A DNA stretch of 43,037 bases from a virus. This document shows positions 7,005 to 35,298 of this stretch, one piece after another. The first letter of the stretch is position 1, and each line of letters begins with the position of its first letter. The position numbers were made by a program, and so were the translations under genes. The stretch covers positions 1 through 43,037 of the IMG/VR virus record IMGVR_UViG_3300045282_000345; one strand, 5' to 3'. The notes beneath the pieces are model-generated. The model was not told where the DNA came from. It did not search any database and saw only the letters and a list, made by a program, of their open reading frames with translations.

Positions 7005-10000
7005 ATGCCGCTGCCAGACGTAGATATTTCTTCCTGGAACAAGTACAGCGCGGACCGCTGGAAGCAGCAGACCGAAGACCGCATCAAGACCATCGGCACG
7101 CCCCCGCCGACGCCGGCCATGCCGTCGATGCCGGCCATGCCGCGGCCCACCCTGGCGACCGCACCGACCGGGTCGATGGGTCTGGACTTCCTCGCGTCGA
7201 GCTCGCAGAAGATCCGATCACTGATGCCGTCCGTCGACCAGCCGCCCCAGATGCCGACGATCACCCCGCCGGTCGTCGGGCCCGGCGGCATCCAGCTCCC
7301 CCCGATCCCGATCCCGCAGATCCCCGGCCAGCAGCAGATCCCCGGCCCGCAGCAACTGCCTCAGCCAGTCCCACAACTTCCCACTCCGAGCCCCACCCCG
7401 GTACCGGTGTCGCCGCAGATCGCGCCGGCACCACCCGTCGAGTTGCCCGTCTCCGGTGCGCCGCCGGTCCCTCCGCCACAAGCGCCCGCACCGGAGCAGG
7501 CTCCCCCACCCGGCCTGCCCACGCCGCAGACACCCCAGACTCCGCAAACGCCGCTGACTCCCGGACCGGCACCCGCCGCTCCGCCGCGGTCGATCTACGC
7601 CCCCGATACCGCGACCACGCCACCGCAGCAGTCGCCGTTCGCCGACCAGACCACCACCAGCGGCGGACCCTTCGCCGACCAGGCGCAGCCGACCACGGTC
7701 ACCACACCGCAGAGCGCCGGTCCGAGCGGAGCCATCCCGGCCCAGATCAACGTCCCCATCGACAGCGGGCCCACCATCAGCCGCGCCCAGGCTGAAGGGA
7801 TCGTCGCGGGCACCCCGCTCGAGGGGCTCGGCAGCCAGATCTGGGACCTGGGCGTCAAGTACAACGTCGACCCGGCGTTCGCATTGAGCATCGCCAAGAA
7901 CGAGTCGAACTACGGATCGACCCCGTTACAGCAGCAGAACAACAACGTCTGGGACATCAGCAACGCTGCCTACGGTGGTCAGGCAGTACAGGGCTCCCGC
8001 TGGGGCCAGTACCCCGACAAGCTGGCCGCCGCCGAAGCGTTCTACAAGCTGATCACCCAGGAGTACTACCCCAAGGGACAGACCACCGTCGGCTCGGTGA
8101 TGTGGGGACCCAACGGCACCCAGGTCCACGCCTATGCACCCACCAGCGAAAACAGCACCGAGTACCCCGATCGGCTGATCAACACCATGCGCGGCTACGG
8201 CGCCCAGATCCAACCGGGCGCCCAGGATCAGCACGCTCCCGCGACACCGCGCCAGACGCCCGGGACCCAGATCGCCAATACCCCCAATGTCAACGGGCAG
8301 ATCTTCCCGCTACCGATTCGACCCGACAACGCGCCGACCGCTACCTACCACAGTGAGGGCGGCTCGGACCTGATGGCTCCGCGCGGTACGCCGGTGCTGA
8401 ACATGCAGGGCGGCACCGTGGACGAGGTGTTCACCGACAACGGCTCGCACACCGTCGGCGGTAACGCGGTCCTGATCCGCGGCGATGATGGGCTTGACTA
8501 CTACTACGCCCATTTCGATCAGCCGACCTCGCTGAAGGTCGGTCAACGGGTCGGAGCGGGTGAGCAGATCGGCGCCGTCGGCAACTCCGGCAACGCGTGG
8601 AAGGGCGGCGACGGCGCGACCCATCTCCATATCGGCATCGGCCACGGAATCTCCGACGGCATCGGCTCCGAAGGTGGACTGGGGCAGCACTTCAACGCGC
8701 AAACGTTGCTGACCGATCTGGAGCCAGGAGTCGGGCAGGCCACCACCACCGGCCCGGCGCCAGCGGCGAGTCCACTACAGGTCCTCGACCAGACCCGCAA
8801 GGCGATCAGCGACAGCCTCGCCGGGCGACCCGTCAGCACTCCGATCCGTCCGCAGATTGCCGATCTGGGGATCACCGCCGCGAGCCCTCAGGCACCGCAG
8901 GCGTACCAGGACTACGCCCAGCCGCAGCGACAGCAAGACCAGCAGCGACCGCAGCCGTACGCGCCGGCAATGATGTCCGCCCCCGGCACCGGCGGCTCGG
9001 GCAGCCCGTTCGACCAGATCGGCAAGAGCATCAGCGACGCGATCCAGCAGGCGCTCGGCGGACTCGGCGGCGGCGGCGGGCCCAAGCGAACGCAGTACCA
9101 GCCCGAGGATCAGCCCGCGAATCAGGACCAGAGCGTCGGCGATCGCAGCCGCGCCATGATCGAGCGCTTCAACCAGCTTCCCGGCGGTCACACCCTGCAG
9201 GACCTGGGCATGCCCGACCTGCTCCCACCGGACTTCTCTGGAAAGTCGCCAGGGGACGCGGTGCTCGCCGCGCTCGGCGCCGCCGGTCGGCAGGCACTCA
9301 ACCGACAGTCGCCGACGCTCGGACCGGGCGGACTGGGGATCTACGACCCGCGGCTGGGCGCCGACCCGCGCCAGGAGGTGCCGCCGATTCTCGATCCGGC
9401 GGAGGCGATCGGCGAGATCCTGAGCCGCATCCGCGGACAACGAGGTTTTCACGCGCTCGAGGACGCGTTCAGTGCCGCTCGATCAGAGACGCCGCTCGGA
9501 GCCGGGTCGGTCGCCGGCGCTCCCGTCTCGGGTGGCGGCACCGGACCGGCGCTCGCGGCGATGGCCAGGGACGGCGAGAAGAGCATCGTCAGCACCCTGG
9601 ACCGCAACGGGCTGCAGGGTTTCTGGGACAGCTTCGTCCGCCAGTACAGCGACCGCAACGTCGACCTGAACCACATCGAGGAAGAGCTCGGGCGTCGGCT
9701 CGGGCGCCCGCTCCAGGACAACGAGCGCCTGGCACTCCTTGCTCGCGTCGATCCCACCCACCAGGCTGCCACCGCAACCGAGATGGCTATCGGACCGTCG
9801 CTGCGCGCGGTGCCGCAGGAAGCGCTGCCGGATACCTACGACCTGATCAAGCACCGCACCAACCTGTCGATCGCCGAGGGGCTCGCCAAACAGGAAGGGC
9901 AGCGAGTCATCGACGCGGGTATCGCTCCAAATACCGAGGCGCGAATGCAGAGCGCGATGGAGGACTGGAACAAAGCCCAGGACGCGGTCGACGAGGCGCA

Positions 10001-13000
10001 GCGATTACGAGACGAAGCGTCTTATCCGGGTGGATTGCAGACCCGCGAGTCGATCAGCATGGACGCCGCCAACCGTCGGGTGCAGGCTGCCCAGGATCAA
10101 CTGGACGCCGCGGCTGAAGTCGCTCGCCAGACCAACGCCGACGCCGCGCGCGAGCGCACCCTGGCCGCGCCGACCGCTGGCAATCGGTTAGTGACTCACC
10201 CGGAGCTCCGCGACCTGACCATCGCCGAGAACAACGCGAAGGTGCTCAACCAGAAGTACTCCAAGCTGTTCGGGACCGACCCGGAGCACCCGTACCTGGA
10301 AACGCTGGGGCGCCAGGTCGGACGAGCTGAGGACCGTGCCGCGCGACTGCGATCGCAGATCGGCGAGGCATCGGGCACGCGGAGCGCCACCATCGAGGGC
10401 CGTGCCCAGGCAGCGTCGGATGCCGCGTTCACCACTCAGCCGCGCTACAACCCGACCGCTGACTACGCCGGCGCGAATGTACGGCTTCGTTACGAGCAGC
10501 AGAACCTGGCCCGGCTCCAGCGCGAGCAGGCGCAGGGCATGAAGGGACTCACCGACGAGGTCGCGCGCGCGCAGGACCGCGTCGAGAAGGCAGCCAGGGA
10601 CGTCAGCGTTGCCCAGATGGACGTACCGCAGCGAGCGAGCGCCGCCGAGTGGGCGCAGCGCACCGGTCGCCAGTTCGAAAACATGCGCTACCCGGATATC
10701 CAGAAAGCGATGTCCGACATGCAGGCCAAGTACGCCGATCAGCCGCAGACCTGGGAGAAGATGAACAACGCCGCGCAGGCGGTCTTCGACTACCGCAAGA
10801 ACCTGCTGCAGGAAAAGGTCAACAGCGGGATCATCGACCAGAAAACGATGGACGATCTGCTGGCCACCTACAAGGACTGGACCCCTACCCGTTTGCTGGA
10901 CTACCAGACCGAGGAAGGTCCGGGCGGACTCGCGCGCGGCAACAAGGTCAACGTCAACTCCAACGGGTTCAAGAGCTACACCCTGGAAGGGTCCAACAAG
11001 GCGCAGGAGAACCACGTCGCCAGCCTGATCCGCGAAGCCGACCAGACCTATGCGCTCGGTGCCAAGAACCGCGTGTTCAACGGGCTGGTCAACGCCCAGG
11101 CAGGCGAGGGCGGCTCGCTCAAACGCATCGCCGACAACCTGAAGGAATACGTTGACACCGGCGGCGCGGCTGGTCCGCTGCACCACCCCGATTACCGCCC
11201 CCTGCCAGGCCAGGGAGAGTTCAAGCTCACCGGGTTCGTCAACGGGAAAAAGCAGGAGTACGTCACCAATAACCCGTACATCAAGCAAGCGGTCGACAAC
11301 GTCAGCGTCGCGCCGGATCCGGTCGCAACCCTGGCCAGCAAGGCCACCCATCTGGTCCGCGAAACCGCGGTGTCCCGCAACCCGCTCTGGCTGGCCGGCA
11401 ACTCCATCATCGACGCCGCGGGGTACTCCATCGGCACCACCGCTGCCGGTGGAGTGCGGCGCAACCTCCCGTCGATGGCGCTCAACCTGGCGCCGGCACT
11501 GATTACCGCGGGGACCACCTCTCCAGACGATCCCAATCGCGGTCACAAGATTGCCGCTGCGGCGATCGCCGGGATGGGCACTCGAGCGCTGATGGGGAAC
11601 CGTCTGGGCCTGGGCCCGAGCGCCATGCGGGAGTTCATGCTGGCCTACGGCGACGTGCTCAAAGGACTCGGCAGCGGGCGAATGACCGGTGAAGGAGTGC
11701 GCGAGCTGGAGGCGTCCGGCGCGGGCATGCGCGGTGGCAACTTCTTCGGCGGAGGGACCAAGGAAGCACAGAAGCGACTCGACGAGCTCACTCGCGGTAA
11801 CGCGTTTACGATCCGCAACGCTGAAGACGCGAAGAAGCTCGCCAACGACGCGCTCGCGTTCGGCTGGGTGAAGGCGCTCGGCAACCGCTTCGAGCAGGCT
11901 CCCCGAATCGCTGCCTATCGGGTCGCTCGCCAGCGTGGTGAAACCCAGCTTGAGGCGATGGCCCGCGCCCGCGACGTCACCATCGACTTCGATCGCGGCG
12001 GCAACTTCTCCAAGGCGATGAACAACTTCATCCCCTTCTTCAACGCGGGCGTGCAGGGCGGCGCTCAGTTCGGGCGACTCTGGAGAAAGAACCCCGGCGG
12101 GATGGCGCTCGCGGGCGCCTCGCTGGTCGGGATGCCGACGGTCGCCGCCGAAGAGTGGAACCGGTCCGATCCGCAGCGGTCCAAGGACTACGACAACGTG
12201 CCGCAGTACCTGAAAGACCAGGGGGTGGTGATCATGATGCCCGGCGACGCGCCCGTCGACAAGAACGGCAACCGCGTCCCGCAGCACATCGACATCAACC
12301 TGCGCGAGTTCGCCCCGTTCGCCATCGCCGCGCGCGAAGCGTACGACCGCACCACCGGCAAGGGCACGCCGCGCAACGCTGGCGATCTGGCACTGGCGAG
12401 CGGGCAGGCGCTCCAGCCGCTGAACGTCCGCAACCCCAGCGAGTCGATCACCGGGGTCATCCCGGTCCCGCTCAGCACTGCGTTCCAACTGGGTCAAAAT
12501 ACCGACCTCTACCGCGGCAGCACCATCGCCAACCAGTTCAGCGACGAGAACGCGTCCAACTTCGGCAAGGCCACCGCGCCGATCCTCGAGCGTGCGCTCA
12601 CCAGCATCCCCGGCCAGAGCGCAGATCGGATCCGTCCATCGCAGGTCGACTTCGCCACCCGCGACGTGTTCAACGGACTCGGCTCGAGTTTTCTGGGAGC
12701 GAGCGATGTCGCGACCGGGCGAGCGCCGCGCGCGCCCGGCCTGCTCCAGGACATTCCGGTGGTCGGCAGCGAGCTCGGACGGTTCGTACGCGGCAGCGGC
12801 GGGCAGGCGCGTCAGGACGTGACCAGTCCCGAGGCGATGATGGCGCCCGACGTCCGCCAGAAGATGCGCGCGATGGGCGACTACTACGAGCCGAGCACGG
12901 TCCCCTCAGACATCCAGAAGATCCCGCTCCGCGAAGCCGAGCAGGTCCAGTACCAGCAGTTGACCAATCAATACTTCGATCGCAATATGCGACGCTACCT

Positions 13001-13163
13001 CGACATGCCAGTCTTTGAACGCAGCCAGGCAGCACGTGACTATCTGCGCGCCCAGGCAATGACCAGCGCGCGCGCGCTGGCTGCCGCCCAGGTCCTGCGT
13101 GAGGTCCGTGCGAGCGGCTCCAATCTCGCAAGCCGATACAAGAGCAAGAGTTCAGCCGCCTGA
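7005..13163 (+). CDS. Giant virion protein with lysozyme-like, M23-like peptidase and LPD38-like regions
   Basis: 2052 residues, the largest gene in the phage. Residues 1-250 are Pro/Gln-rich and disordered. Residues about 255-400 resemble a glucosaminidase/lysozyme fold (VDPAFALSIAKNESNYG, with the likely catalytic Glu in KNES). Residues about 432-575 resemble an M23 endopeptidase (ATYHSEGGSD, YYYAHFD, THLHIGIGHG). Then come a Gln/Gly linker and long helical segments. Residues about 1650-1780 match the large-polyvalent-protein LPD38 pattern (DVTIDFDRGG, NNFIPFFNAGVQGG). The composition is that of an internal or ejected virion protein that opens the cell wall during DNA entry. Domain calls are from motifs; no structure was checked. 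Confidence 0.85.
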   Translation: MPLPDVDISSWNKYSADRWKQQTEDRIKTIGTPPPTPAMPSMPAMPRPTLATAPTGSMGLDFLASSSQKIRSLMPSVDQPPQMPTITPPVVGPGGIQLPPIPIPQIPGQQQIPGPQQLPQPVPQLPTPSPTPVPVSPQIAPAPPVELPVSGAPPVPPPQAPAPEQAPPPGLPTPQTPQTPQTPLTPGPAPAAPPRSIYAPDTATTPPQQSPFADQTTTSGGPFADQAQPTTVTTPQSAGPSGAIPAQINVPIDSGPTISRAQAEGIVAGTPLEGLGSQIWDLGVKYNVDPAFALSIAKNESNYGSTPLQQQNNNVWDISNAAYGGQAVQGSRWGQYPDKLAAAEAFYKLITQEYYPKGQTTVGSVMWGPNGTQVHAYAPTSENSTEYPDRLINTMRGYGAQIQPGAQDQHAPATPRQTPGTQIANTPNVNGQIFPLPIRPDNAPTATYHSEGGSDLMAPRGTPVLNMQGGTVDEVFTDNGSHTVGGNAVLIRGDDGLDYYYAHFDQPTSLKVGQRVGAGEQIGAVGNSGNAWKGGDGATHLHIGIGHGISDGIGSEGGLGQHFNAQTLLTDLEPGVGQATTTGPAPAASPLQVLDQTRKAISDSLAGRPVSTPIRPQIADLGITAASPQAPQAYQDYAQPQRQQDQQRPQPYAPAMMSAPGTGGSGSPFDQIGKSISDAIQQALGGLGGGGGPKRTQYQPEDQPANQDQSVGDRSRAMIERFNQLPGGHTLQDLGMPDLLPPDFSGKSPGDAVLAALGAAGRQALNRQSPTLGPGGLGIYDPRLGADPRQEVPPILDPAEAIGEILSRIRGQRGFHALEDAFSAARSETPLGAGSVAGAPVSGGGTGPALAAMARDGEKSIVSTLDRNGLQGFWDSFVRQYSDRNVDLNHIEEELGRRLGRPLQDNERLALLARVDPTHQAATATEMAIGPSLRAVPQEALPDTYDLIKHRTNLSIAEGLAKQEGQRVIDAGIAPNTEARMQSAMEDWNKAQDAVDEAQRLRDEASYPGGLQTRESISMDAANRRVQAAQDQLDAAAEVARQTNADAARERTLAAPTAGNRLVTHPELRDLTIAENNAKVLNQKYSKLFGTDPEHPYLETLGRQVGRAEDRAARLRSQIGEASGTRSATIEGRAQAASDAAFTTQPRYNPTADYAGANVRLRYEQQNLARLQREQAQGMKGLTDEVARAQDRVEKAARDVSVAQMDVPQRASAAEWAQRTGRQFENMRYPDIQKAMSDMQAKYADQPQTWEKMNNAAQAVFDYRKNLLQEKVNSGIIDQKTMDDLLATYKDWTPTRLLDYQTEEGPGGLARGNKVNVNSNGFKSYTLEGSNKAQENHVASLIREADQTYALGAKNRVFNGLVNAQAGEGGSLKRIADNLKEYVDTGGAAGPLHHPDYRPLPGQGEFKLTGFVNGKKQEYVTNNPYIKQAVDNVSVAPDPVATLASKATHLVRETAVSRNPLWLAGNSIIDAAGYSIGTTAAGGVRRNLPSMALNLAPALITAGTTSPDDPNRGHKIAAAAIAGMGTRALMGNRLGLGPSAMREFMLAYGDVLKGLGSGRMTGEGVRELEASGAGMRGGNFFGGGTKEAQKRLDELTRGNAFTIRNAEDAKKLANDALAFGWVKALGNRFEQAPRIAAYRVARQRGETQLEAMARARDVTIDFDRGGNFSKAMNNFIPFFNAGVQGGAQFGRLWRKNPGGMALAGASLVGMPTVAAEEWNRSDPQRSKDYDNVPQYLKDQGVVIMMPGDAPVDKNGNRVPQHIDINLREFAPFAIAAREAYDRTTGKGTPRNAGDLALASGQALQPLNVRNPSESITGVIPVPLSTAFQLGQNTDLYRGSTIANQFSDENASNFGKATAPILERALTSIPGQSADRIRPSQVDFATRDVFNGLGSSFLGASDVATGRAPRAPGLLQDIPVVGSELGRFVRGSGGQARQDVTSPEAMMAPDVRQKMRAMGDYYEPSTVPSDIQKIPLREAEQVQYQQLTNQYFDRNMRRYLDMPVFERSQAARDYLRAQAMTSARALAAAQVLREVRASGSNLASRYKSKSSAA

Positions 13164-32399: not shown

Positions 32400-33346
32400 A
32401 CCAGCAGATGCAGCGCCGTCGCGAGAGCGGCGACATCACCTTCGAGATGATCCGGTCGATGACCGGGTTCGAGCTCGCCGATCTGGCGCTCATCCGCCAC
32501 AAGATGGCCGCGTCGATGGGCAAACAGCCTAAGGACGTGTCGATGCTCGATCTGGCGATGTTCGCTCGCGCGTCCAAGACGCTGGGCATCGACCCGATTG
32601 TCAATCAGGACTACTGGATCAACCGCGAGGGTCGGGGGACGTTCCAGCTCGGCATCGACGGTTTGCGTTCGATCGCCGATCGGGCGGGCAACTACGCGGG
32701 GTCGAGTCCGCCGACGTTCCGCGGGACGCTCGAGTGGCGCTACAAGGGGACGAAGGACAAAGAGCCGCAGGTCTACATCGTCCCCGAGTATGCCCAGGTT
32801 GTGGTCTGGAAGATCGTCGAGGGCCACAAGGCAGCCTTCACCGGTGAGGCGCGGTGGGTGGAGTTCGTGCCGTCCCCGGGCAGCGCGTTTATGTGGGCGA
32901 AAATGCCGCGCCACATGCTGGCGAAATGTGCCGAGGCCCAGGCATTAAGGAAGGGCTGGGCGCTGCAGATGAGCGGTGCCGGGTTCACTCCCAACGACGA
33001 GCCGGTCCCGGTGTCGGAGCGAGTCGAGGTGTCGGAGTCGACTGAGTCGCGGGTGCCGCAGAAGCGGACGTACGACGATTTTTACAAAGAGGATTTCTAC
33101 GACATCCCCGCGACCGAGAAGGCGTTGCCGGAGGTGGCGGCGCCGGACGCCGAGCCGGAGCAGGAAGCCGAGCCGGAGGTGGATGAGTGGGCTCGCTATC
33201 GGACGCTGCGGCAGCAGGCGATCAACCTGAAGCTGAACCCGCATTCGCTTCGCAACGAGACGCCCATCGACGTGGTGCGTGAATACAACGACACGCTGGG
33301 CGAGATGATCGAGCAGGCCGGGCTCGAGAACCTGGCCGCTCGTTGA
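32384..33346 (+). CDS. bet: Single-strand annealing recombinase, RecT/Bet family
   Basis: 320 residues from ATG 32384, overlapping the previous gene by 16 bases; an ATG at 32396 is an alternative. It anneals complementary single strands during phage recombination and replication repair. Pattern typical of Bet: ARASKTLGIDPIVNQDYWIN, GIDGLRSIADRAGNYAG, EYAQVVVWKIVEGH, MWAKMPRHMLAKCAEAQALR. The C-terminal third is acidic and proline-rich (AAPDAEPEQEAEPEVDE), probably the SSB- or nuclease-binding tail. No partner exonuclease is recognised; the VRR-NUC gene may serve instead. Confidence 0.88.
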   Translation: MDVPMNQQMQRRRESGDITFEMIRSMTGFELADLALIRHKMAASMGKQPKDVSMLDLAMFARASKTLGIDPIVNQDYWINREGRGTFQLGIDGLRSIADRAGNYAGSSPPTFRGTLEWRYKGTKDKEPQVYIVPEYAQVVVWKIVEGHKAAFTGEARWVEFVPSPGSAFMWAKMPRHMLAKCAEAQALRKGWALQMSGAGFTPNDEPVPVSERVEVSESTESRVPQKRTYDDFYKEDFYDIPATEKALPEVAAPDAEPEQEAEPEVDEWARYRTLRQQAINLKLNPHSLRNETPIDVVREYNDTLGEMIEQAGLENLAAR

Positions 33347-33401
33347 TCCGTGCGGTCAGAAATCTCGGGGTGTATGCCGTCCGGAAGGAGGCACCGGCTC
33401 C

Positions 33402-35298
33402 GTGAAGGCGATTTCGCTCTTCAGTGGAGTCGGCGGCTTTCGAGCTCGGGTTCCAGCGAGCCGGTATCGCGACGGTACTACAGGTCGAGTCGGATCCGTG
33501 GTGCCTGAGCGTGCTGGAGCGGCACTGGCCTGACTGTGAGCGAGTCACCGACGTTCGCCAAGTGGACGCGTCCTCACTTCAAGGACGATGCCGAGACGTG
33601 GTCGGAGTCGGATCTGGCTCCGACGCTGAGCGGCTGGGAGGAGCGTCACGAGGTGCCGCCGGTGCTGATCGGCGAGCCGATGGCATTCCGCTCGACGGGC
33701 GGCTCGCGTTCAGTGGACGCCGGGACGATGTCGCCATCGCTGAAGGTGGGCCAGGGTGGCGGTCACGGGACGCCGGCCGTGTTGACCTCGTCTACGGAGG
33801 CTTCCCCTGTCAGGACGTCAGCGTGGCCGGAAAACGGGGTGGTCTATCCGCGGAGCGCAGCGGTCTCTGGTTTGAGTTCCACCGGATCGTGTCCGAGCTG
33901 CGGCCACGATGGGTCGTCATTGAGAATGTTCCCGGACTCCTTTCCTCAGGACCAGAGCCGGGCGCCGACTTCGGTGTCGTACTGCGGGGGCTGGTCGACG
34001 TCGGGTTTGGTGTGGCCTGGCGGGTTCTGGACGCGCGTCACTTCGGAGTCGCCCAGCGTCGTCGTCGGGTGTTCATTGTCGGCTGTCTTGGAGACGCGCG
34101 CCGTGCCGCGCAAGTACTGGCTGTCTGCGAAAGCTGCGGCGGGCATTCTGCGGCGGGCGGCGAAGCGGGGCAAGATCTTGCCTACGCGCTTAATGCAAGC
34201 GTTAGAGGCACTGGCGACGGGCACGGCAACGCGTGGAACTCCAACTACGTAGCCGATGCCGATGACATTGCCCCCACGCTTGATGACGGCGCTCGAAGGG
34301 CTAGCGTCGAGCTCCCCATGATTGCCTTCGCCAGCAAGGGTGGTGGCGGCGGTGCCATCGAGGAGTCGGGCATGTCTCCGACCATCCTGGGCACCAGGGG
34401 CAACGGTGGGGTTCCGCCGGCCATCGCGGCGACCTTGAGTGGTGGTGGTCATCCCGGCAGCAACATGCCCGGGCGACACCACGAGGACGACGAGAACCTT
34501 ATCGTCGACTCCCAGAACGCCGCGGTGGTGGACGAGGTGGGTGCACTGGGGAGTGGCGCGGCGCACGGCAATCGCGGGTTCATGGTGGCTGGCACGCTTG
34601 GGACGGAGAACACGCGCCACCCCGGTGGATCGAAGTCCGAAGCGGACATGCTGGTGGTCGGCTCGACGATCGACGATGGTCAGGCGCGTCCGCTGGTGGC
34701 TCGTGCGAGCGGGTATCGCATGGACATGGAGTCGGAGACGTTCGTGGTCGGGACCATGCAGCAGTCGTCTCTGGCTGGTCGCGGGACGTTCGGGTGGGAC
34801 GAAGACCCGCAGGCATCCAAGCCGGTCAAGACGCAGGAAGACGGGCAGATGATCGTGCTGAGCACCAACGGCACCAACGTGGGCGTATCGGATCTGCCCG
34901 GGGTGATCGGCGCCCAGCTTGGTGGTGAAGCTGACTACGTGGTCGCTGGCCCGGTCCGGGCCAGCGACGGTCATCACGGTCACTCGAGCGGACGTGGCGA
35001 CGGCGCCGACAACCTGCTGGTCGCCGATCCGGTGAGCGCTCACGAAGGCAAGACGTACACCCACGAAGGCAAGAACAACTTCCGCACCCACAACGTGGTG
35101 CCGTCGGGCATGGGTGTGCGACGGCTGACTCCGATGGAGTGTTCGCGCCTCCAGGGCTGGCCTGATGACTGGGTCCGTCTCACTGCTGACGGCAAGGTGA
35201 TCCCGGATTCGCACCAGTACAGAATGATCGGAAACGGGGTGGTGGCGCCGGTGGCGGAGTTCATAGGGCACCGGCTGGTCGAGGTCGACTCATGGTGA
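33402..35298 (+). CDS. dcm-like: C5-cytosine DNA methyltransferase, needs a +1 frameshift at 33438-33441
   Basis: GTG 33402 with AAGGAG 11 bases upstream starts MKAISLFSGVGGF, methyltransferase motif I. After GGC TTT the frame must move +1 (TTT to TTC) to read FELGFQRAGIATVLQVESD and the rest; the unshifted frame stops at 33531. Further motifs: GGFPCQDVS with catalytic Cys (33808-33810), VIENVPGLL (33916 onward), FGVAQRRRRVFIVG, RRLTPMECSRLQGWPD and IGNGVVAPV near the C-terminus. The variable region from about 34200 to 35080 has many DxxxPTL-type repeats. It would protect phage DNA from restriction or mark it. Alternative: a simple one-T insertion that has inactivated the gene. Confidence 0.82.
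33536..34252 (+). CDS. Overlapping ORF in a third frame inside the methyltransferase gene
   Basis: 238 codons from GTG 33536, two bases after the stop (33531-33533) of the unshifted methyltransferase start frame. Parts look truly coding: the N-terminus PTFAKWTRPHFKDDAETWSE and PMAFRSTGGSRSVDAGTMSP resembles methyltransferase-linker repeats found downstream in the other frame (PMIAFASKGG, GMSPTILGTRGNGG). The C-terminus KYWLSAKAAAGILRRAAKRG then LPTRLMQALEAL matches a small-protein pattern I recall from phage methyltransferase loci. Third-codon-position GC is high. It may be a genuine overprinted gene or a conserved shadow. Confidence 0.5.
   Translation: MSESPTFAKWTRPHFKDDAETWSESDLAPTLSGWEERHEVPPVLIGEPMAFRSTGGSRSVDAGTMSPSLKVGQGGGHGTPAVLTSSTEASPVRTSAWPENGVVYPRSAAVSGLSSTGSCPSCGHDGSSLRMFPDSFPQDQSRAPTSVSYCGGWSTSGLVWPGGFWTRVTSESPSVVVGCSLSAVLETRAVPRKYWLSAKAAAGILRRAAKRGKILPTRLMQALEALATGTATRGTPTT

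Follow-up and report, generated by a model that had tools for sequence, protein, structure and literature searches.

Long genes that overlap on the same strand are rare outside tiny viruses, and those that are proposed are usually doubted. The closest described systems are m5C DNA methyltransferases (MTases) made of two polypeptides. The small polypeptide of one of them, M.EcoHK31I, is reportedly encoded within the gene for the large one, in another frame. As described in PMC3404938, which cites Lee, Kam and Shaw (1995), motifs I-VIII and X of this two-polypeptide m5C MTase reside in the large polypeptide, whereas the small one holds part of the small domain and, of the motifs, IX alone. M.AquI, in turn, is a single m5C MTase formed by two subunits (PMC3404938). 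Here we compare these systems with a phage locus at which a long ORF lies in a third frame, and sequence comparison across relatives indicates that this ORF is real, a gene that lies within that of a phage m5C MTase in its +1 frame. This widespread nested gene is the main result; an extra T in the MTase gene is an uncommon feature of one lineage, in which the +1 shift is possibly tolerated.

The window, the whole stretch of DNA analysed, is the IMG/VR virus record IMGVR_UViG_3300045282_000345 and is 43,037 bases long; GenBank phages yielded no DNA nearly identical to it. The extra T is common to the window and two other contigs, IMGVR_UViG_3300010362_001053 (L017/L092) and IMGVR_UViG_3300005764_001771 (L027/L098). 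The locus is laid out as follows.

33383..33391, plus strand: Shine-Dalgarno sequence GGAAGGAGG of the MTase gene (from the sequence, aligned with L017).
33402..33533, plus strand: unshifted 43-codon frame (VKAISLFSGVGGFRARV...) with MTase motif I, SLFSGVGGF, ending at TGA 33531-33533 (from the sequence).
33438..33441, plus strand: TTT C with the extra T, a candidate site for a P-site +1 slip (UUU to UUC) before CGA (common to L017 and L098).
33439..35298, plus strand: m5C MTase frame after the shift, with motifs IV-VIII, variable target-recognition cassettes and motifs IX and X (PF00145, phrog_116).
33536..34252, plus strand: nested gene in the MTase +1 frame, GTG start, 238 aa (conservation, phrog_16143, selection tests).
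33554..33783, plus strand: variable segment with cassettes that are meaningful when translated in the nested frame (TFAKWTRPHFKDDAETWSESDLAPTL...) (matches to MTase-frame cassettes of other phages).
34070..34216, plus strand: conserved C-terminus of the nested protein, CSLSAVLETRAVPRKYWLS followed by the two-helix domain AKAAAGILRRAAKRGKILPTRLMQALEALA (alignment, AlphaFold2 model of the L021 equivalent, frame-specific conservation).

The enzyme matches the C5-cytosine DNA methyltransferase family PF00145 (E 4.4e-50 for 33424-35295) and is also assigned to phrog_116, with M.HhaI relatives among its PDB matches. Motifs IV (PCQ), VI (ENV), VIII (QRRRR), IX and X share one frame, so that the MTase keeps motif IX, GVRRLTPMECSRLQGWPDDW, in its own frame; motif I, the SAM site, lies in the unshifted frame, to which the remaining motifs are at +1. 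The layout from which the original prediction started is found as it described it: the GTG 33402 frame has motif I, the TGA is at 33531-33533, the TTT at 33438-33440 and the C at 33441, and GTG 33536 opens a 238-codon third-frame ORF that runs to 34252. Since motif I and the rest of the enzyme are in different frames, an active MTase that contains motif I does, as proposed there, require a +1 shift at TTT C.

The C-terminal region of the MTase (34250-35150) consists of repeated PTL-type cassettes that are highly variable among relatives and look like exchangeable target-recognition pieces; PTL-type segments correspond to the part of M.HhaI-like enzymes around the recognition loop, ahead of motif IX. 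A near-perfect palindrome, GCTGGCCCGGTCCGGGCCAGC, is found inside the MTase gene at 34942-34968 as a self match on the minus strand. Elsewhere in the window, a 2052-aa ORF (7005-13163) has a metallo-endopeptidase/endolysin-like stretch at residues 446-545 and probably encodes a virion lysin or the tape measure protein of the tail.

Viral contigs scanned for the MTase core gave 80 IMG/VR loci, and in essentially all relatives inspected no stop interrupts the MTase +1 frame across the catalytic region, where it codes for a conserved protein. This nested protein is present in dmt of P1/P7 (L099), a Salmonella phage-plasmid (L100), Virus Rctr41k (L101), a Coprococcus phage (L102), Mycobacterium phage Phoebus (L103), Lactococcus phage 4268 (L210) and many streptococcal phages, and the nested gene is likewise present in Clostridia phages and prophages of several phyla. 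A tblastn search of phages with the window's own nested protein returned no match, and the cassette-free relative L021 was used as the query in its place; one query found the nested protein in 161 phage and 531 plasmid records and another found it in 205 phage records. Scanning GTDB genomes also gave 80 loci, with the nested frame lying over the MTase wherever the automatic frame check succeeded and with no standalone copy of the nested protein seen among the frame-checkable loci; about 20 of the 80 failed the motif filter, and those of them that were looked at have an MTase ORF at the site. The MTase frame is broken at L135. The annotated MTase of Lactococcus phage 4268, orf14, stops just past motif VIII (186 aa; 1302-1884), and the nested ORF there is intact. 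In L027 the nested protein has lost its conserved C-terminal domain to a deletion that is in-frame for the MTase, and this domain is therefore not indispensable everywhere.

PHROG 16143 (139 aa) is the main family of the nested protein, which is matched by 43 of its 49 members. It is a profile of the same protein, and its label, 'DNA methyltransferase', is silent on both nested nature and function. The nested protein has no match in Pfam, NCBIfam or PDB, most of the public records examined annotate the MTase alone over such genes, and literature searches of open-licence papers found no description of the nested gene. To our knowledge, this widespread gene within phage m5C MTases is an undescribed family of a known kind; the literature and annotation searched were partial, and an earlier description is possible.

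Two overlapping frames free of stops are little evidence by themselves in GC-rich DNA, as the window illustrates: when the synonymous codons of its MTase are shuffled, the nested frame stays open in 2.9% of trials. Among relatives of 43-65% GC the same shuffling shows an openness far beyond chance (0 of 1000 trials in many AT-richer genes), and in a contrast set of ordinary m5C MTases the +1 frame is mostly closed by stops. Synonymous MTase sites are frozen 2-3.5-fold from the nested start to the nested stop. Expressed as third-base differences among conserved four-fold codons, divergence in group A is 0.228 within the overlap versus 0.507 before and 0.563 after it at 50-70% identity, and 0.141 versus 0.498 and 0.469 at 70-95% identity; the corresponding values in group B are 0.380 versus 0.679 on both sides and, in a second comparison, 0.223 versus 0.620 and 0.622. 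The divergence profiles of three groups fall to 0.01-0.10 at ~60-30 codons before the nested stop and stand at 0.44-0.71 directly past it.

The amino acid sequences point the same way. Mean pairwise identity over the final 32 codons, starting at KYxLS, is for groups A, B and C 0.82, 0.69 and 0.65 in the nested frame, 0.62, 0.39 and 0.45 in the MTase frame and 0.60, 0.36 and 0.43 in the third frame. The most variable base in the C-terminal domain is position 1 of the MTase codon, which is position 3 of the nested codon, and just upstream, at motif VIII, the MTase codon periodicity is restored. An internal Shine-Dalgarno sequence with a properly spaced nested start occurs in 45 of 64 genes, versus 8.6±2.6 expected from codon permutation, with AAGGAGGCGCACAGATG (L021) and GAGGAGGGTTACCGATG (L015) as examples; the sequences behind these counts and the selection counts are related, which makes the counts non-independent, and separate groups agree. 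The window's nested gene has no clear Shine-Dalgarno sequence at GTG 33536. Of what is expected of an overlapping gene, the nested frame thus displays both frame-specific purifying selection and its own start signals, the latter weak in the window itself. The proposal that one stretch of DNA here specifies two proteins is upheld, the nested frame being conserved and under purifying selection.

Three parts can be distinguished in the nested protein: the N-terminus varies, the middle, which overlaps motifs IV-VIII, is poorly conserved, and the end is conserved as [SL]SxVLExxVPxKYxLSxKAxxGILRRAxxRGKxLPxxLxxAL. When the L021 nested protein was modelled by AlphaFold2 with 44 relatives, a C-terminal two-helix hairpin was predicted with pLDDT 95-98 and the remainder with low confidence; a fold search with this mostly low-confidence model gave no match. 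The LSxVLExxVPxKYxLS motif resembles in sequence the element with which the target-recognition domain begins in ordinary m5C MTases, which keep a motif of this kind in the MTase frame. Thus LSEVLETDVPQKYYLS of L021 is identical at 12 of 16 positions to LSEVLETEVPEKYFIS, which is found in frame after motif VIII in the ordinary MTase L091, and hhalign of the profiles of the nested C-terminal motif and the ordinary MTase, over a short segment and with few sequences, gives a probability of 87.5% (E 3.6e-6). N-terminal segments of 17 nested proteins, that of the window included, match cassettes for target recognition located in the MTase frame in other phages (best E 2e-15), and the third frame of the same N-terminal DNA has no cassette match. 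Similar cassettes are therefore translated in different frames in different phages, here as part of the nested protein and there as part of the MTase. Translated in the MTase frame, 33554..33783 of the window is a variable spacer.

The extra T is a rarer feature, separate from the nested gene and found in one small lineage. In the ~40 loci read, T-less relatives have motif I in one frame with the rest of the MTase, and the TTT_CGA site is kept only in the three related contigs. We consider an assembly slip an unlikely origin of the T because the same T is present in two contigs from other metagenome projects. Comparison of the same position in relatives gives a divided answer to the scenario set against the original prediction, in which the enzyme would be in one frame and the overlapping ORF full of stops: the enzyme does lie in a single frame there, yet the overlapping ORF is conserved and free of stops.

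Unshifted ribosomes in the T lineage would end after 43-52 codons. A stop closes the MTase frame upstream of the shift, and an enzyme initiated at the first in-frame start would be without motif I. The natural way to restore the MTase would be for tRNA-Phe to slip by +1, from UUU onto UUC, ahead of CGA; since the downstream MTase frame is under purifying selection where the T is present, such slippage at TTT_CGA is plausible. TTT accounts for 50 of the 300 Phe codons in the window, and a search for RNA structure 3' of the shift site found no consistent stimulator (z -2.0 in the window, z -0.5 in L017). Past the T, the window resembles L005 (86%) more closely than it does L017 (79%); recombination may therefore have carried the T, and it may be in this way that the window acquired it. 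The stretch upstream of the MTase is common to all three T contigs, and in L017 it is the tail of an HNH gene, DGMVRNLGAYAVQKEVPLQ. At 33342-33401 of the window, between a RecT-like gene and the MTase, lies the scar of an HNH endonuclease tail, LIRAVRNLGVYAVRKEAPAP, where L017 still has the HNH gene.

Could the T simply be a loss-of-function mutation, with the MTase of the T lineage dead and the nested gene alone kept? Apart from two contigs, the T is missing from all close MTase relatives, motif I, and with it cofactor binding, is lost without a shift, and the HNH-gene scar directly upstream shows rearrangement. However, in the MTase outside the overlap L017 and L027, which both have the T, differ by 10 synonymous and 2 non-synonymous changes, versus a neutral expectation of 76% non-synonymous (p about 2e-5 from 12 substitutions in one genome pair), which argues that the MTase frame still matters in the T lineage, and the L027 deletion that drops the nested C-terminal domain preserves the MTase frame. 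We consider a dead enzyme unlikely, while according it more weight than the alternatives that follow. The simpler explanation offered originally, a one-base T insertion that broke the enzyme, has in its favour the absence of the T from other relatives, and the purifying selection on the downstream MTase frame where the T is present speaks against it. A second alternative, also part of the original prediction, has ribosomes that do not slip terminate at 33531 and start again on the nested gene and those that slip make the MTase, in a fixed ratio. It would account for the two bases between stop and start in the window, for the overlap of the stop with a GTG in L017/L027 and for a nested start in the window that lacks a good Shine-Dalgarno sequence. 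The juxtaposition of stop and start stems, however, from NTGA-type starts and is also found in 13 T-less relatives, where the frame that ends near the nested start is untranslated; we therefore rejected this proximity as evidence for reinitiation, and reinitiation as its purpose is not supported. The T is in three contigs only, whereas T-less relatives keep the nested gene and most use an internal Shine-Dalgarno sequence, all of which makes a fixed ratio through reinitiation improbable. The T is instead probably tolerated through low-level frameshifting and is not essential to making the nested protein.

The two remaining alternatives concern the nested frame itself. Because synonymous suppression alone cannot separate RNA from protein, the conservation might reflect an RNA element or a DNA signal. 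Against this, the suppression is structured by frame, leaving free the third position of the nested codon, its edges coincide with the nested start and stop, the amino acids of the nested frame are better conserved than those of both other frames, and Shine-Dalgarno starts are enriched; we regard a nucleic acid signal as highly improbable. Even harder to credit is an inserted homing endonuclease of the ShiLan kind, although the ShiLan domain shows that phage methylase genes can harbour an ORF out of frame (PMC11855218) and L017 has an HNH gene just upstream of the MTase. The nested protein matches neither HNH nor anything else in Pfam, NCBIfam or PDB, and its ORF overlaps the catalytic motifs and occurs in nearly all members, where an insertion would be patchy.

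We return to the reading in which the nested gene is genuine, its product a likely partner of the enzyme and the T a tolerated feature of one lineage, an account that we consider probable as a whole. The nested gene would make a small, largely disordered protein that ends in a basic two-helix domain. This protein would act with the overlapping MTase and would most likely be a second polypeptide that contributes parts of the target-recognition (small) domain. A partner is the simplest reading because every copy whose frames were checked lies within an MTase gene and the nested protein looks like parts of the recognition domain; on the strength of this co-occurrence and resemblance we tentatively propose that it is the small partner, or second polypeptide, of the MTase, a proposal that could fall either way. 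With rather less assurance we suggest that the m5C MTases of phages and prophages might include a very large class of dual-frame enzymes, extending over actinophages, P1 and streptococcal phages, in which a second subunit encoded in the +1 frame would hold part of the target recognition, cassettes would switch between frames and one small lineage would add a +1 slip in motif I.

Conservation of the nested gene extends to phages of several bacterial phyla, and since the gene sits in dmt of the laboratory phage P1 it is directly testable. For the specificity of phage MTases, it means that some of the recognition machinery may be encoded as a protein of its own that annotations miss and that recoding a phage MTase gene for a single frame would destroy.

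The candidate shift site is like those of programmed +1 frameshifting (RF2, Ty1; reviewed in PMC5009743) in that the P-site tRNA could re-pair one base forward, and differs from them in having neither a stop codon at the site of the shift nor a recognised stimulator. With ShiLan the locus has in common a protein hidden out of frame within a phage methylase gene; ShiLan, however, is an inserted mobile endonuclease of patchy occurrence, whereas the nested gene overprints MTase sequence and is near-universal in its clade. M.AquI is similar as an enzyme made from two subunits, but it is split head to tail with motifs IX-X in the second subunit, whereas the nested gene overlaps the catalytic motifs.

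The window's family shares with M.EcoHK31I a second product from another frame of the MTase gene, which in M.EcoHK31I is reportedly the small polypeptide. The nested protein would act like the small polypeptide of M.EcoHK31I, supplying a different missing piece. The MTase frame of the window retains motifs IX and X, unlike M.EcoHK31I, and the nested protein has instead a motif like the start of a target-recognition domain, recognition cassettes and a basic two-helix domain. Because motifs IX and X stay in the MTase frame, the logic of M.EcoHK31I is not directly transferable to these phage MTases, and we do not class the window's family as a member of that type.

A second family of nested +1 ORFs, phrog_1008, is found in L093-type phage MTases (L272-L351). 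All 78 of its nested ORFs of at least 150 aa have a motif IX-like LNPxWVEWLMGYPxGWT, and a pattern search found motif IX in none of the 78 overlapping MTase frames; both overlapping ORFs are annotated in RefSeq for Paenibacillus phage Jacopo. Homology between this motif-IX family and the nested family of the window is not established, their profile similarity being weak (36%) and such as may only echo the shared MTase frame. The layout of M.EcoHK31I is shared by these L093-type genes, and through this branch an M.EcoHK31I-like layout is common in phages.
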